Source: Microvenator marinus
GTDB lineage: Bacteria > Myxococcota_A > Bradymonadia > Bradymonadales > Bradymonadaceae
DNA length: 64,000 nt
Assembly (NCBI RefSeq): GCF_007993755.1
Contig: NZ_CP042467.1
Span: 4,240,001-4,304,000, forward strand
Direction: 5' to 3'
The translations under genes and the position numbers were made by a program. How positions within the stretch are numbered: the first letter of the stretch is position 1; the number at the start of each line of letters is the position of its first letter. The notes under the pieces are model-generated. The model was given only the letters and a program-made list of their open reading frames with translations. It was not told the DNA's origin and searched no databases. Shown in pieces: positions 51,572-57,724 of this stretch.

Positions 51572-53572
51572 ATGGACAGTCAAAAAGCAAAAGTGCAGTG
51601 GTGGATGCCTGTGTTGGGCGTGGTGCTTCTAATCGGCGTGGGCCTTGGCATCTGGGCGTATCTTGGCCACCAGGAACGTCTGGAACAACAAAGGGCCGCT
51701 GACGCGCTCTTTGATCCGATTGAAGCAGCCGTTGAGGAGGCCAAGGCTGAACCGCGCTACGATATCGATCGTACCGTGCAGGTCATTCACGGCCTCGATA
51801 GCGCGCTTGATGCACAGGGCTCGCTCGAGGACTATCTCAAGTATATGGCCCGTCAAGACTACCGCGGTGTGGCGCCTGACGTGCTCGAGGCGCGTCTCAA
51901 GGTGCTGAGCATCCTGAAGCGTCTTTACGCGACCCAGACCAAGCTTGAAAACCAGGAGTCTACGTTCACGGTCACACGTACCGTGCTCTCCGCTCTTTCA
52001 CTTGCGAAGGCCGACGTGGACATCATGTCCGGCGTGATGCCTTCGCTTGATTCTGAGCAGGCAAAGACTGTGCTCGAGGACCTGAGGAAAGACCAGGCCA
52101 TCAAGAAGGAACTCCTCGACGAGCTCGCTGAGCTCGAAGTCGAGCTTATCTCAGTCATGACCGAGTATAGCGAAGTCTACTACAAGTACATTGCCGAGTG
52201 GGACAAACTGGTGCTCTTGCGGGATCGCGCCTACCTCGCGGCCGCTGAGGGCCAGTGGGCCACTGCCGCAAGTGCGGCCGACAAGGCCATCGAGATGGCC
52301 CCTGAGGAGACTGAGGCGCATCTGCTAAAGGCCCGCGCGCTCATCGAAGCCGTTCAAACGCCGGAGAGCCAAAACCTCGAGCAAGCAGTGACCCTGCTTG
52401 GCGAATACATGCAGGAGAATCCGGACAGAAGTGCCCCAGCGCTCTTGCTCCTTGGAGTGGCCTACGAGCGAATGGGGCGCATGGACGATGCGCGTCTTAA
52501 TTACCAACAAGCGGCCGCCTACTACCCGAAGCAGGCTGAGGTCCTCTCGGATATGATGGACCCCTATGAGGTTCGTGGGTTCTTGAGGAAGTCCCGCGAA
52601 GGCAGAATCATTCTCGATCAATACTCCGCCACCATGCTCGGCGCCGGCTACTTCAGTCCGGACTTGCACATGGCCCGCGTGAGTTTTCTCGCCGGCGATA
52701 TGGAGGAGGGGAAGAAGAAGGTCCTCGATCACTTCTCACGTAGGAGAAATCAGGCCAGCTGGGACCTCGTGCTCAACGATATCGAGTTCTGTGAGTCCTA
52801 TCTCGGTGCCTATTTTGATGGGTTGTTTGTGGAGGATTCTCACCTCTTTTTGGAGGCCGAGCCTACACTGATTGGCTCAAAGCTCGACGTCTCAGTCAAG
52901 AATCAGTCCCCTAAACCCCTGCATAACGCCACCCTGCTTCTAGCCGTGCGTTTTACCGACATGCATCGAGACGATTTTCAAGTGTTCAAGGTCGGCGAAA
53001 CCGTACCGGTCGTGACCGAGCACGCGACAACGAATTTTGGCTCGCTCACGGTGGAGTATCCGCTCTTCGGGCAAACTCGTGGAGTGGATGATATCGTACT
53101 GACCCGTGCAATTCTCTTGACGGACACAGCGGTGGTCTGGGTTGATTCGGACGAGTACCGGTTGGCATTGGCCAGGACTTCAGAGAGCGCTCCCCCGCCT
53201 GAGGAGCGCAAGACCTGGTTTGACGTGATGAAAGTGGACCCTGAGATGCTCACTGGGCTTCTTAACTCCAGTGATGTGGGTCTTGACCTCTCGCTAGGGC
53301 GCGACGATGTGACGCTAAAGTTACCTCGCGAACTCTCCATCTTGAAGCCCTCATTCCGGCTTCATGACGAGGGCCAAACGTATGCGCCCGAGGTCAACAA
53401 ACTCAACGAGGATGGTATCGAACTCAGGTTTGATAGCGTGAGAAATTTTGAGGGGGACGGCGTCTCAAGCGCCAATCCCGTCGTCAAAATTCATACGCGC
53501 TTCGGAGACTTTGACGTCACGATCGACTGGAAGAATCGCCGAATTGGTGGTGTCGATTTTGTGGCTCGATAA
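51572..53572 (+). CDS. Membrane-anchored TPR protein
   Basis: 666 residues. One membrane segment (about 11-31, WMPVLGVVLLIGVGLGIWAYL) followed by a large domain outside the cytoplasm. Residues 205-330 carry TPR-like repeats (AAEGQWATAASAADKAIEMAPEETEAHLLKA, LLLGVAYERMGRMDDARLNYQQAAAYYP). The C-terminal half is beta-rich, with a VSVKNQSPKPLHNATLLLAVRF strand pair and the ending VKIHTRFGDFDVTIDWKNRRIGG. It probably holds other envelope proteins together. Its last 108 bases overlap the minus-strand gene 53465-55030. Confidence 0.75.
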   Translation: MDSQKAKVQWWMPVLGVVLLIGVGLGIWAYLGHQERLEQQRAADALFDPIEAAVEEAKAEPRYDIDRTVQVIHGLDSALDAQGSLEDYLKYMARQDYRGVAPDVLEARLKVLSILKRLYATQTKLENQESTFTVTRTVLSALSLAKADVDIMSGVMPSLDSEQAKTVLEDLRKDQAIKKELLDELAELEVELISVMTEYSEVYYKYIAEWDKLVLLRDRAYLAAAEGQWATAASAADKAIEMAPEETEAHLLKARALIEAVQTPESQNLEQAVTLLGEYMQENPDRSAPALLLLGVAYERMGRMDDARLNYQQAAAYYPKQAEVLSDMMDPYEVRGFLRKSREGRIILDQYSATMLGAGYFSPDLHMARVSFLAGDMEEGKKKVLDHFSRRRNQASWDLVLNDIEFCESYLGAYFDGLFVEDSHLFLEAEPTLIGSKLDVSVKNQSPKPLHNATLLLAVRFTDMHRDDFQVFKVGETVPVVTEHATTNFGSLTVEYPLFGQTRGVDDIVLTRAILLTDTAVVWVDSDEYRLALARTSESAPPPEERKTWFDVMKVDPEMLTGLLNSSDVGLDLSLGRDDVTLKLPRELSILKPSFRLHDEGQTYAPEVNKLNEDGIELRFDSVRNFEGDGVSSANPVVKIHTRFGDFDVTIDWKNRRIGGVDFVAR

Positions 53573-55030
53573 GTACTCCAACACAAGCCCGCGAGCCGTC
53601 TGACCGAGCGTCTCGGACTCCATCAATCCCACCAGATGTTCAAGCTCGGCCGGAAGATTGAATCCCAAATCTTGATTGGCCCCTACTTGCAGCCACTCAA
53701 GAGCCTTGGGGCCCGTCAGCACAACCTCTAGGCCGGGGCGTCCCGCAAGGTCTTGGCAAATTGCACCCAGCTCCAACGTTTCAGCGCCGATCCCCTTGTT
53801 GTAGAGCAGGCTGAAAACCCGCACCGTTGTTGAGGCAGAGACCTCGGCGAAGTCTGCGCCTAAGAGCGTGGCCGAACGCAAAATCTCGCTCACACCCACT
53901 AAATCCGAAGGCTCAAGTTGGTCCAGCGCATCGATAAATGGCTGACAAAGGCTCAGGTCAATACGACCCATGCCGACCAATCCCTTCGACGGTGAGCCTT
54001 CAAACCAGAGGCCAGAGAGCCGCGCCAGTCGGTCTGCGAGGCGGTGTAGGTTGGGCTTTGCTGGCCATGGATCGATCGCACGCTCAAGGGTAGCGGCATC
54101 CACCAACTCATCCGAAGCGCGCATCTGCGCGATCTCCTTGAGCGCATCTTCAACATCCATCATGGAGCGGCGGCATTCCTCGTTGAGCTCCGCACCGAGT
54201 GTGCCTTCCAAGTCCGAAAAGTTGACCACGTGAAAACAAAAATGCGCGAAGCTAAGGGCTTCCTTTCGACTCAAACCCAGAGCGTGTGAAAGCGCCTTTG
54301 TGCCGACAATCAGGTAGTTGACCCAGGCGACCAGATCTCGGACGGGGCGAATGCCTCGCACAACATCAAAGACGCGCTGCCGCGAAGCTGCGATGGCCCT
54401 CGCGAGCTCCCTTAAGTGCGGGTTGTCTCGGAAAGCACTGAGTTCGTGGAACTCGGGACCGTCCACCTCGAACGCGAGCGCGGCGCGCACGACAGGCATG
54501 AATCCATGCGCACGTAGGTGGTCGATCGCGGCGAACTCAAACTTCTTCGAACGCTCGCCTAGATCCGTGTGGTCGAGGCGCCGAGGATTCCAGGCCTCTT
54601 CAAGTTTCATCAGCGCGATGAGGCCGCTTCGTTCTCCAACAAAATTAAGCAGAAGCTCCGTGTTCTCAAACACCGCGTCCACTTGCTCAGCCGCTGATAG
54701 GCCATCCAGTTTCTGGAGTTGTTGGTCAATTTGAATCAGGTGTTCGAGGGTTGATTCGGGTCCTGCTTCGGAATCGAAATTCGTGCCTTCAACGCAAAGT
54801 CTGGCGACGACGGATGAGACCCGTGTGTTTGACTCTACGAGGTCAGCGATCTTATTCGGGTCCAACTCGGAGCAAGTCAACTCGTGCCAAACACGCATCC
54901 AGACCAGGGACTTCTCAACGGCAACCAGCGCGTCGGGTCCAGCCTCGTCGCTGAGGGCCTCAAGCGTTCTGAAAACGAGACGTAGCGTATCCTGAGGTAG
55001 CTCAGGAAGCATCTTGGTGAGTATATTCAT
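53465..55030 (-). CDS. Large helical protein of unknown function
   Basis: 521 residues from ATG 55030, with AAGGA upstream. Almost entirely predicted helix and rich in Leu/Ala/Glu, for example LRLVFRTLEALSDEAGPDAL and LEHLIQIDQQLQKLDGLSAAEQ. No membrane segments or signal. Nothing matches a family I know. The last 36 codons lie antisense to the end of the convergent TPR gene; codon-rich sequence continues to the stop, but that tail may be an extension. A possible sigma-54-like site lies upstream at 55083-55098. Confidence 0.68.
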   Translation of the reverse strand: MNILTKMLPELPQDTLRLVFRTLEALSDEAGPDALVAVEKSLVWMRVWHELTCSELDPNKIADLVESNTRVSSVVARLCVEGTNFDSEAGPESTLEHLIQIDQQLQKLDGLSAAEQVDAVFENTELLLNFVGERSGLIALMKLEEAWNPRRLDHTDLGERSKKFEFAAIDHLRAHGFMPVVRAALAFEVDGPEFHELSAFRDNPHLRELARAIAASRQRVFDVVRGIRPVRDLVAWVNYLIVGTKALSHALGLSRKEALSFAHFCFHVVNFSDLEGTLGAELNEECRRSMMDVEDALKEIAQMRASDELVDAATLERAIDPWPAKPNLHRLADRLARLSGLWFEGSPSKGLVGMGRIDLSLCQPFIDALDQLEPSDLVGVSEILRSATLLGADFAEVSASTTVRVFSLLYNKGIGAETLELGAICQDLAGRPGLEVVLTGPKALEWLQVGANQDLGFNLPAELEHLVGLMESETLGQTARGLVLEYLSSHKIDTTNSAILPVDRDVKVSEARMNFDDGIGA

Positions 55031-55082
55031 TCGGTCCTTCCTTGGTCCGCATAAGTGTTCAAGCGCCGATCCGTGGCGCCAT

Positions 55083-55098
55083 GGCATGCACTATGCCA
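55083..55098 (-). promoter_or_regulatory. Possible sigma-54-like promoter
   Basis: On the minus strand TGGCATAGTGCATGCC shows GG-N10-GC spacing and a TGGCA -24 element. The -12 element reads ATGC instead of TTGC, and the sequence is partly palindromic, so this may be chance. It points at the gene starting at 55030. Confidence 0.3.
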
Positions 55099-55141
55099 GA
55101 AATCTCCTGAGTATTAAAACCTATTGATCATCCAAGAAACG

Positions 55142-55171
55142 AAAAAAGGTCCTCTTGCGAGGACCTTTTTT
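55142..55171 (-). terminator. Perfect intrinsic terminator, works on both strands
   Basis: AAAAAAGGTCCTC (55142-55154) pairs perfectly with GAGGACCTTTTTT (55159-55171) around the loop TTGC. The U-tract forms on both strands. On the minus strand it directly follows the structured small-RNA candidate; on the plus strand it would block read-through from the other direction. Confidence 0.9.
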
Positions 55172-55321
55172 CAGCGTCTTGTCAGGGGGAGGTGACAATA
55201 ACGCAGACTTGCTAGGTGCAAGTCATCGGGTCTGGTGCTTGGAGGGGAACCCACCAGACCCAAGGTTGAAGACTACGTCCGGAGAGCCAGGGGGGACACG
55301 CTCAACCGAACCATCAACCTG
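55142..55321 (-). ncRNA. Candidate small RNA, about 180 nt, with C-rich loops
   Basis: The 350-base gap 55031-55380 holds no credible gene. On the minus strand a consensus promoter (55328-55356) is followed by about 180 bases that end in the perfect terminator. The RNA would have a 10-base-pair hairpin GGGTCTGGTG/CACCAGACCC (55228-55237 with 55252-55261, loop TTCCCCTCC inside), a 7-base-pair hairpin (55206-55212 with 55218-55224) and a long-range pairing AGCGT/ACGCT that closes the whole. Three C-rich single-stranded stretches (CCCCCC, CCCCTCC, CCTCCCCC) could pair with ribosome binding sites. Alternatively the length and rod-like shape suggest a 6S-like RNA. Not SRP RNA, tmRNA or RNase P RNA, as their conserved cores are absent. 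Confidence 0.6.
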
Positions 55322-55327
55322 ATTGGA

Positions 55328-55356
55328 AAATTACAGTCCGAGTGTGTTGCGGTCAA
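55328..55356 (-). promoter_or_regulatory. Sigma-70 promoter of the small-RNA candidate
   Basis: On the minus strand -35 TTGACC (55356-55351), a spacer of exactly 17 bases and -10 TAATTT (55333-55328). Transcription should begin near 55321. There is no ribosome binding site or open frame just downstream. Confidence 0.7.
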
Positions 55357-55380
55357 GTCTTTTTTTAAAAGAAAACCAAA

Positions 55381-56280
55381 TTATTTCGCTGAACTCAAGA
55401 ATGTTTTCATCCATTGGACGATTTTGTCTGTCGCGTCTTCTACAACATAATGCCCGGCGTCTTTGAGGGCATGCACTTCCGCTGCGGGGAATCGCCGCTC
55501 CCACTCCTTCCTGAACTCCGGGTGAAAGCAAAAATCGTCGTCGCCCCAAACGATGAGCATCGGTTTATCCAAAAGGCGTTCGAGGCCGTTTTCCACCTCC
55601 AAGAGTGTCGTGTATGAAGGATGGCTCTCGGACATTGGGATGTCCTCGACAAAACGTTGAATTGCCACACGATTTTCCCAAGAATCATAGGGTGCGAGGT
55701 ACCCGTTGCTGACCGGAGGGATCAGGTTGCTCCGATCGTAGATCGCCCGGAATTGTGCGACGCGTGCAAAGGCGTTTAGTCCACGTACAGCGAGGGGGCC
55801 AAAGCCCGGAACCCTGCACAATGCAATGGAGAAAGGCATCGAGGACGAACGAAAAGCCGCCGTATTGAACACGATGTTTCGCTCGATTTTCTCAGGGTGA
55901 CGCGTCGCAAACCCCATCCCGATCGCTCCGCCCCAATCGTGGACGACCATGGTGATCCGATCCAACGACAGGTGTTCCGAAAGGGATTCTAAATCCTCGA
56001 TTCGCCGCGCAAGTGTGTAGGGATAGTCTTCGGGTTTTTCCGAGAGCCCGCACCCAATATGGTCGATGGCCACACATCTGAACTCGCCGCGAAACGCCAG
56101 GATTAGCTCGCGCCAGTAGAAGGACCAGGTCGGGTTCCCGTGCACAAACAAAAGCACAGGCGCATCTTTTGGGCCCTCGTCCACAAAGTGTAGCTTCGCA
56201 CCGTCCAGCTCCAGAAAATTGGACTCAAAAGGATAAAGATCGCGCCAATCTTGCGCCGCCACTCGCTCTGCACTCACCAT
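55381..56280 (-). CDS. oleB: OleB-type beta-lactone decarboxylase (alpha/beta hydrolase)
   Basis: 299 residues from ATG 56280, which overlaps the oleA stop by seven bases. Haloalkane-dehalogenase-like fold: VHGNPTWSFYW (oxyanion region, 46-56), VVHDWGGAIG with nucleophile Asp 115, VWGDDDFCF (acid) and DAGHYVVED (His). OleB turns the beta-lactone made by OleC into a cis-olefin in long-chain hydrocarbon synthesis. The direct pairing with oleA makes this more likely than a dehalogenase. OleC and OleD are not in the window. Confidence 0.85.
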   Translation of the reverse strand: MVSAERVAAQDWRDLYPFESNFLELDGAKLHFVDEGPKDAPVLLFVHGNPTWSFYWRELILAFRGEFRCVAIDHIGCGLSEKPEDYPYTLARRIEDLESLSEHLSLDRITMVVHDWGGAIGMGFATRHPEKIERNIVFNTAAFRSSSMPFSIALCRVPGFGPLAVRGLNAFARVAQFRAIYDRSNLIPPVSNGYLAPYDSWENRVAIQRFVEDIPMSESHPSYTTLLEVENGLERLLDKPMLIVWGDDDFCFHPEFRKEWERRFPAAEVHALKDAGHYVVEDATDKIVQWMKTFLSSAK

Positions 56281-57290
56281 CGAATCTCCATCATCGAGCA
56301 ATTTAGACCGCTGCCAATCCCCATCAGGGCAATGCGATCGCCAACCTTAAGGTGCCCGCTACTCGCCGCCTGCGAGAGGGTAAACGGAATGGATGCTGGT
56401 CCCATATTTCCATACTCAGGGTAGCTTAAATGGGCCTCTTCTTGGGGGAGGCCAAGCCGCGAGAGCACGGATCTTAAGTGGGCAGACCCAACCTGGTGCA
56501 TCATCAGATGGTTGAGATTAGTCTGAGTCCATCCGAGTTCGCGTTGTGCGGCGCTAAACGTCTGGCCCGCGAGCTCAACGCCCGCCTTGAGCAGGCCAGG
56601 GGCATCGGTGACCATATGATCGCGCTGACCGCGGCAGAGGTGGTTTTGATTGGATGCGCTCAGGCTCACCCCGCCGGTGAAGCGATGTGGAGTACGGCAG
56701 AGATTGGCATGGGAGAGCACCATCGCTGAGGCACCGCTTCCGAGCGTCAGGGTCGCAAAATTATCGCGTAGTTCTTTTTCGCCCACATTTGGCTGCGCCA
56801 ACCACTGAACGGTGGTCTCGACCGGAAGACGGCTCGACTCACCCACCACGATCAGGGCTCGGCGAGCACTTCCGCGCTCGATCATCATCGCCGCGACTTC
56901 CATCGCGTTTAGGAATGCAAGGCACGCGTTCGAGATATCGAAATTAAGGCATGCCGGCCCAAGGCCAAGATTCGCATGAACCGTACTCGCGATACTCGGT
57001 TCGATATAGTCCTTCGAGACAGACGTGCTGATCAATACGTCGATATCATGGGCTTGGACTCGGGCGAGCTCCATCGCACGGCGTCCGGCGTCGGTGGCAG
57101 CGTGACTTGACTCCTGGCCTTCGGGGAAGAACCGCCGAGCCACTACTCCGGTCAGCGAACGGATCAACCCCTGTTTATGACCAAGTCTTGTCAATGTTTG
57201 TGCGAACCCAGCTTCAAGCAGCTCGGATTCCACCCGAATCGGTGCCTCGATATGCGCCACCGACTCGACGCCCACATTCTCAAATTTCAT
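56274..57290 (-). CDS. oleA: OleA-type acyl-CoA condensing enzyme (3-oxoacyl-ACP synthase III-like)
   Basis: 338 residues from ATG 57290, which overlaps the upstream stop (ATGA). Thiolase-fold condensing enzyme with active-site Cys 123 in DISNACLAFLNAM, a Glu at 97 (DYIEPSIAS) in the place of the glutamate typical of OleA, MMHQVGSAH with the active-site His, and PEYGNMGPASIP with the Asn. OleA joins two fatty acyl-CoAs head to head, the first step of long-chain olefin synthesis. FabH-like ketosynthases are the alternative, but the oleB neighbour and the acidic residue favour OleA. Confidence 0.88.
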   Translation of the reverse strand: MKFENVGVESVAHIEAPIRVESELLEAGFAQTLTRLGHKQGLIRSLTGVVARRFFPEGQESSHAATDAGRRAMELARVQAHDIDVLISTSVSKDYIEPSIASTVHANLGLGPACLNFDISNACLAFLNAMEVAAMMIERGSARRALIVVGESSRLPVETTVQWLAQPNVGEKELRDNFATLTLGSGASAMVLSHANLCRTPHRFTGGVSLSASNQNHLCRGQRDHMVTDAPGLLKAGVELAGQTFSAAQRELGWTQTNLNHLMMHQVGSAHLRSVLSRLGLPQEEAHLSYPEYGNMGPASIPFTLSQAASSGHLKVGDRIALMGIGSGLNCSMMEIRW

Positions 57291-57724
57291 CCGCGTCCCT
57301 TCAGTCCAAATACCGGTTCCAACTCCTTCACGATCTTGAAATAGACGTCTTTTTTGAAAGGTTGGTTCAGAATATGGAACTCCTTCTTCACGAGACCTAC
57401 ACACCCAAAGCAAAAAACACAATCATGACAATGGGTTGAGAGGTTGACGTAAGAGCAGCCACTCAGGAATGCTGAATGTTGGCAATACGACGAATTGGAA
57501 AGTCTTGAGCTCGAATGGCAATGGGTGCATCCCGTGCATTCGACCACTTCGGTGCAATAGGTGCACCGGTAGGAGTCGCGGCTTGAACTCGTGAACATGC
57601 ACTCGAAGCAGCGCTCATTCTTCTCGGATTGGTAGGATCCGGGGTTGTCTTTTTGGCCTTCAAACTCTCGCTTAAGCTTGCTTAGCGCCGCCTCGAAGTC
57701 TTTTTTACTACGCGGAATGTCCAC
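57287..57724 (-). CDS. Cys-rich small protein heading the ole genes
   Basis: 145 residues from GTG 57724, with AAGGAG well placed upstream. The centre holds a dense set of Cys and His: ERCFECMFTSSSRDSYRCTYCTEVVECTGCTHCHSS up to SSYCQHSAFLSGCS and HCHDCVFCFGC, spaced at two to five residues and resembling a Cys ladder or zinc/iron cluster domain. The tail (HILNQPFKKDVYFKIVKELEPVFGLKG) is conserved-looking. It overlaps oleA by 4 bases, so it is probably co-translated with it. I do not recognise a function; relatives in deltaproteobacteria are often mislabelled as CaiB/BaiF. Confidence 0.75.
   Translation of the reverse strand: MDIPRSKKDFEAALSKLKREFEGQKDNPGSYQSEKNERCFECMFTSSSRDSYRCTYCTEVVECTGCTHCHSSSRLSNSSYCQHSAFLSGCSYVNLSTHCHDCVFCFGCVGLVKKEFHILNQPFKKDVYFKIVKELEPVFGLKGRG

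Follow-up and report, generated by a model that had tools for sequence, protein, structure and literature searches.

Predicted small RNAs with C-rich loops in bacteria of the Bradymonas family: an apparently undescribed family with a divergent member

The alphaproteobacterial RNAs ar14 and mmgR and the anti-hemB RNA of Burkholderia have C-rich loops. In Mycobacterium, the C loops of the B11/6C RNA (RF01066) are reported to pair with G tracts or ribosome-binding sites, and Hfq is not needed (PMC10470900). The sX13 RNA of Xanthomonas, whose three stems each carry a C-rich loop at the apex, represses mRNAs carrying G-rich motifs near the start, also independently of Hfq (PMC3771888). Pxr of Myxococcus, an hfq-less bacterium of the same phylum as the one analyzed here, is a stem-loop small RNA in which a C to A change in the SL1 loop abolishes function (PMC5684412, PMC5568312); the sequence complementary to the published Pxr probe is C-rich and contains CCCCCCACCCC (PMC5568312). 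We analyzed a 64-kb window of DNA (G000:C1:4240001-4304000), part of a 5.85-Mb genome. An RNA predicted on its minus strand apparently belongs to an undescribed family of Bradymonas-family bacteria, as one of its more divergent members.

The candidate RNA is intergenic, with an oleB-like hydrolase gene on one side and a second minus-strand gene on the other (Table 1). A first-pass annotation of this DNA had read a promoter here, TTGACC and TAATTT with a 17-base spacer, and a perfect 13-base-pair terminator with a T run. Both were present as claimed, and the terminator stem has 13-15 pairs. A consensus promoter scan of the window did not report TTGACC-17-TAATTT, because TAATTT agrees with TATAAT at only three of six positions; the call of this putative promoter is supported comparatively by the spacing of TTGAC, which was kept in all 12 members examined. 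A terminator likewise lies 3' of the other members with complete contigs. The oleB stop is ~60 bases upstream of the RNA on the same strand, and the RNA is also close behind oleB in G004, the nearest genome, so that it might be taken for a piece processed from the 3' end of the oleB mRNA and not an independent gene. However, the RNA is preceded by a conserved promoter of its own and, in most relatives, does not adjoin oleB, and we regard this origin as very improbable.

Table 1. Features of the small RNA locus and its neighbors in the window
Feature	Coordinates	Strand	Remarks
A-tract, UP-element-like, just 5' of the -35 box	55360..55366	minus	AAAAAAAGACTTGACC; AAAAAAGACTTGACC in relatives G013/G016/G018
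-35 box TTGACC	55351..55356	minus	TTGAC to first helix: 35-37 nt in all 12 members examined, 36 nt in the window
-10 box TAATTT, as TGTAATTTT	55328..55333	minus	TGTAATTTT identical in G004, G005; TGTAATTAT in G010, TATAATTT in G011
Predicted small RNA, ~180 nt	55142..55321	minus	start inferred from promoter; fold z -7.45
5' domain: closing helix P0 (55320-55314 with 55269-55263) enclosing H1, then GUAGUCU	55263..55320	minus	G004 geometry
Hairpin H1 inside P0	55311-55277; loop GUGUCCCCCCUG 55299-55288	minus	6-2-4-12-4-6 plan as in G004
Hairpin H2, 10-11 pairs, loop GGUUCCCCUCCAAG	55227..55262	minus	from fold
Hairpin H3, 7 pairs, loop ACCUA, not C-rich	55206..55224	minus	from fold
Hairpin H4, loop CCUCCCCC	55174..55204	minus	from fold
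Intrinsic terminator and U-tract	55140..55173	minus	stem 55173-55142, 13-15 pairs, T run
Gene downstream of the RNA	53465-55087	minus
oleB-like hydrolase gene	55381-56301	minus
oleA-like and oleB-like genes between Cys-rich gene and RNA	55381-57422	minus
Cys-rich protein gene, usual RNA neighbor in relatives, outside RNA	57287..57724	minus	homolog in 20/21 family genomes

We then analyzed the fold of the RNA. The minus strand folds at -82.8 kcal/mol, compared with -53.7 +/- 3.9 kcal/mol for shuffled sequences (0/200 shuffles). With the terminator removed, the fold was -63.9 kcal/mol (z -4.92, 0/200 shuffles), and that of the plus strand was less extreme (z -4.43). Of 364 stretches of the window with comparable G+C, only two folded as well as the core. 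The two perfect hairpins of 10 and 7 base pairs that had been described earlier are real and correspond to H2 and H3, whereas H1, which lies inside the closing helix, and H4 had gone unnamed. The long-range closing pair also exists as a helix, although it closes the 5' domain alone. Three unpaired C-rich stretches had been noted as well, and these proved to be the loops of H1 (CCCCCC), H2 (CCCCUCC) and H4 (CCUCCCCC).

A divergent 6S RNA, which would bind RNA polymerase, would fit the length of the RNA (~180 nt) and was the alternative kept by the first-pass annotation. However, the RNA forms separate hairpins, not a rod with a central bubble, the window locus has no Rfam 6S (RF00013) match, and the genome carries its own 6S-like match elsewhere (L012, G000:C1:3247588-3247772; 44.0 bits, E 3e-7). 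We rejected this alternative as extremely improbable. The 6S-like RNA at L012 scores just below the Rfam cut-off of 46.4 bits; the Rfam 6S model appears to be weak in the Bradymonas family, because several family genomes fall below its cut-off.

Nor did the window RNA match a described family. Comparison with Rfam 15, a check that had been proposed with the candidate, gave no match over the gathering score, none for 6S, and up to E 10 only weak terminator-like or chance matches. BLASTN against 96 relatives, plasmids and phages found the window alone, besides a chance plasmid piece, and a covariance model made from this one sequence had no match in 58 genomes except the window. A search of the open literature for the order together with small RNA also gave no match. 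Taken alone, the negative Rfam, BLASTN and one-sequence results would have suggested an orphan.

Synteny revealed a counterpart behind the oleB ortholog of G004; it is 181 nt long, as is the window RNA when cut out by the same rules. The G004 stretch has TTGAC and TGTAATTTT at the window spacing, three C-loop hairpins and a terminator. Its first hairpin has the 6-2-4-12-4-6 geometry of the window; the loop motif GUCCCCC and the GUAGUCU that follows the hairpin are invariant in both, and four of the 10 pairs show compensatory changes (none in slid controls). The pattern GTCCCCCN{12,16}GTAGTCT, searched in 96 genomes, matched only the window and G004 besides three loci (L144, L146, L147) that we set aside as chance matches without promoter, hairpins or terminator. 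No such RNA was found downstream of the oleB orthologs in G012, G009 and G006, and 80 oleB-like loci were uninformative, because the RNA is tied to a gene for a Cys-rich protein and not to oleB.

A covariance model of the promoter and first hairpin (R2), built from the window and G004, picked out the full set of these features at two further loci, one in G005 and one in G011, and also recognized the RNA of G010. Other matches to R2 (L151-L155) were dismissed by eye; C loops before a terminator were absent. In 439 kb of both-strand sequence, no unrelated locus had at least two C-loop hairpins ahead of a terminator. Seven members were then aligned by hand, and the alignment gave a plan of a closing helix enclosing two hairpins, two more hairpins and a terminator. 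The family loops are mostly 5-9 consecutive C, and the closing helix includes one with the sequence CUCCUCCCU. In this alignment 95.8% of the cells of 48 pairs were paired, compared with 30-44% in slid controls, and 24 pairs had compensatory changes (0/500 shuffles). With 11 members, in an alignment fitted to the model, 96% of the cells of the 48 pairs were paired and compensatory changes were seen in 35 (0/500 shuffles). The earlier proposal to look for covariation in related genomes thus gave strong conservation and compensatory change.

A second covariance model (R3) was made from the seven hand-aligned members, to which the window does not belong, after mostly-gap columns had been dropped. 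It recovered members outside its training, in G020 (E 1.5e-23), G019 (8.7e-18), G005 (1.2e-10) and G015 (27.9 bits). Altogether, a member is present in 15 of the 21 Bradymonas-family genomes, the window and G004 counted, with C-rich loops as the hallmark, and the original reading as a small RNA with C-rich loops is supported. The remaining six (G001, G003, G006, G007, G009, G012) gave no member near the Cys-rich gene and no R3 match with a credible E-value; these genomes have either lost it or carry a diverged copy. R3 was also run over 379 sampled genomes of the phylum, a non-exhaustive sample searched with the strict filters of Infernal, and no credible member was found outside the family; the matches in G343, G331 and G214 were discarded, as they have no C-run loops or terminators and lie in stretches that look coding. 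The RNA thus appears to evolve fast: BLAST, Rfam and a single-sequence model fail, whereas synteny and covariance succeed.

In relatives, the usual neighbor of the RNA is the Cys-rich gene. A gene resembling it lies beside the RNA of G005, and the RNA adjoins it in 11 of the 20 family genomes that carry its homolog, usually in divergent orientation; C-loop RNAs beside it include those of G002, G005, G008, G010, G011, G013, G014, G016, G017 and G018. In the window, the Cys-rich gene is just beyond oleA and oleB, whereas in relatives the RNA is mostly directly beside it. The two genes in between, oleA-like and oleB-like, we presume to serve hydrocarbon biosynthesis. These data suggest that the Cys-rich gene probably marks the ancestral locus of the RNA, and it is possible that its protein is a functional partner of the C-loop RNA. 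The small Cys-rich protein of the window has no Pfam match.

Few members of the family diverge as far as the window copy. It keeps the promoter, the closing helix, the first C-loop hairpin, two further C-loop hairpins (H2 and H4) and the terminator, and it has an additional small hairpin, H3, between H2 and H4. Its 5' domain lacks a second hairpin, the one with the CUCCUCCCU loop; GUAGUCU follows the first hairpin instead, as in G004. Because G010 likewise departs from the full plan, this second hairpin is typical of most members and not all. R3 matched this RNA alone in the 64-kb window, and the score was low: 15.5 bits, with E 0.054 when 138 kb were searched and 0.0002 for 501 bases. Its homology is argued from the chain that leads from the window to G004, then to G005, G010 and G011 and then to the rest, together with the nearby Cys-rich gene.

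Next, we compared the family with the known C-loop RNAs. It resembles 6C/B11, which works in bacteria that lack known chaperones (PMC10470900), in having hairpin loops of about six C; the six-C runs of 6C are matched by C6-C9 loops in most relatives and by one C6 loop in the window. However, B11 has two C loops, whereas the window RNA has three and relatives have up to four, two of them inside the closing helix. The best family member reached 34 bits with the 6C model, whose gathering score is 47, the window gave no match up to E 10, and 6C belongs to actinobacteria, another phylum. Compared by description, sX13 is 115 nt long and apparently without a closed 5' domain, and we saw no sequence relation to it; Pxr, also by description, has three stem-loops and a sigma-54 promoter, whereas the C-loop family has sigma-70-like TTGAC and TAATTT-type boxes. 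Of the members tested against Rfam, none matched a family above threshold, and the sub-threshold matches of relatives were ar14, 6C, anti-hemB and mmgR. With ar14, mmgR and anti-hemB some relatives reached 36.5/58.8, 26.9/41 and 31.8/49.5 bits, all below gathering, and none of the three matched the window copy; we read such matches as convergence on C-rich loops. The best reading is that of a new RNA family that may function like 6C/B11 and sX13, perhaps also like Pxr. Judged from Rfam 15 and the open literature, the family is undescribed, and its host lineage consists of predatory bacteria.

Hfq (PF17209) was undetected in G000 and 23 relatives (24 genomes), while the control genomes were positive. 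In the part of the genome that was sampled, 36% of 332 start codons have a GGAG ahead of them, a frequency to be read with the fact that the choice of starts favors such sites; with the same reservation, the earlier remark that GGAG-type ribosome sites are common holds. We also compared the loops of the window RNA with upstream regions in a duplex scan of 464 kb, ~8% of the genome. Duplexes of <= -14 kcal/mol were found in 14.8% of the upstream regions and in 10.8% of the internal control windows, a slight excess, and the energies over these 464 kb gave a signal too weak for naming any target.

We consider it likely that the RNA acts in trans, without Hfq, and represses translation through pairing of its C loops with G-rich ribosome sites. 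Transcription, pairing with mRNAs, repression and the identity of the targets we infer as follows. A housekeeping-type promoter of its own would produce the RNA, and the intrinsic terminator would end the transcript. Rigid GC-rich stems would display several unpaired C runs in hairpin loops, and these loops may pair with several mRNAs at ribosome-binding sites that are G-rich or of the GGAGG type. Such pairing would block ribosome loading and thereby repress translation. The main rival is a decoy or sponge, whose C-rich loops would titrate an RNA-binding protein or a G-rich small RNA, in the manner of CsrB but with a C-rich motif. Similar loop motifs repeated on separate stems typify titrating RNAs, poly-C is found in most loops of every member, and the enrichment of pairing at ribosome sites is weak. 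On the other hand, the loops hold CCUCC or CCCC, complementary to GGAG and GGGG, as in characterized antisense RNAs, and we know of no C-specific RNA-binding protein with such a role in the Bradymonas group, which we counted against a decoy. Weighing the absence of a detectable Hfq, sX13, B11/6C, Pxr, the frequency of GGAG and the slight duplex excess, we consider antisense repression most likely and titration quite unlikely.

Among bacteria without detectable Hfq, the family joins mycobacteria (6C/B11) and perhaps myxobacteria (Pxr) as an independent example of small RNAs in which poly-C loops are probably the working part, and we propose that pairing of C loops with G-rich sites may be a mode of trans-acting RNA regulation in chaperone-free bacteria. 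A bolder idea, to which we give a small though real chance, is that the family is a multivalent, chaperone-free global regulator of translation, the counterpart of Pxr in the predatory Bradymonas group, in which poly-C loops on one RNA would act on many ribosome-binding sites at once and set a switch between growth and predation or starvation.

Reading frames and downstream genes bear on two further alternatives. As the first-pass annotation had it, the RNA holds no reading frame of note; the longest ATG or GTG frames vary among members from 5 to 36 codons, and none is conserved. Since each member has frames of this size, a dual-function RNA or a small-protein gene with a short reading frame could be imagined, but their place, length and sequence vary among members, and the stems covary and shift length regardless of frame. 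Because the frames are not conserved, we rejected this as very unlikely. In the window, the downstream gene begins ~50-110 bases past the terminator on the same strand, as it would if the RNA were a cis-acting leader or attenuator of that gene with the terminator as a switch. However, the homolog of this gene in G004 is convergent, the next downstream gene is convergent in nine of 12 members, and the conserved neighbor is the gene on the opposite side of the RNA. Because of the nine convergent cases, a leader is largely refuted and has very little probability left. The downstream gene of the window encodes 540 amino acids with no Pfam match, and homologs of ~31-38% identity are present in 11 of the 20 other family genomes. 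In G016 and G018, a second strong terminator-like hairpin (L171, L172) is located ~100-200 bases past the RNA terminator.
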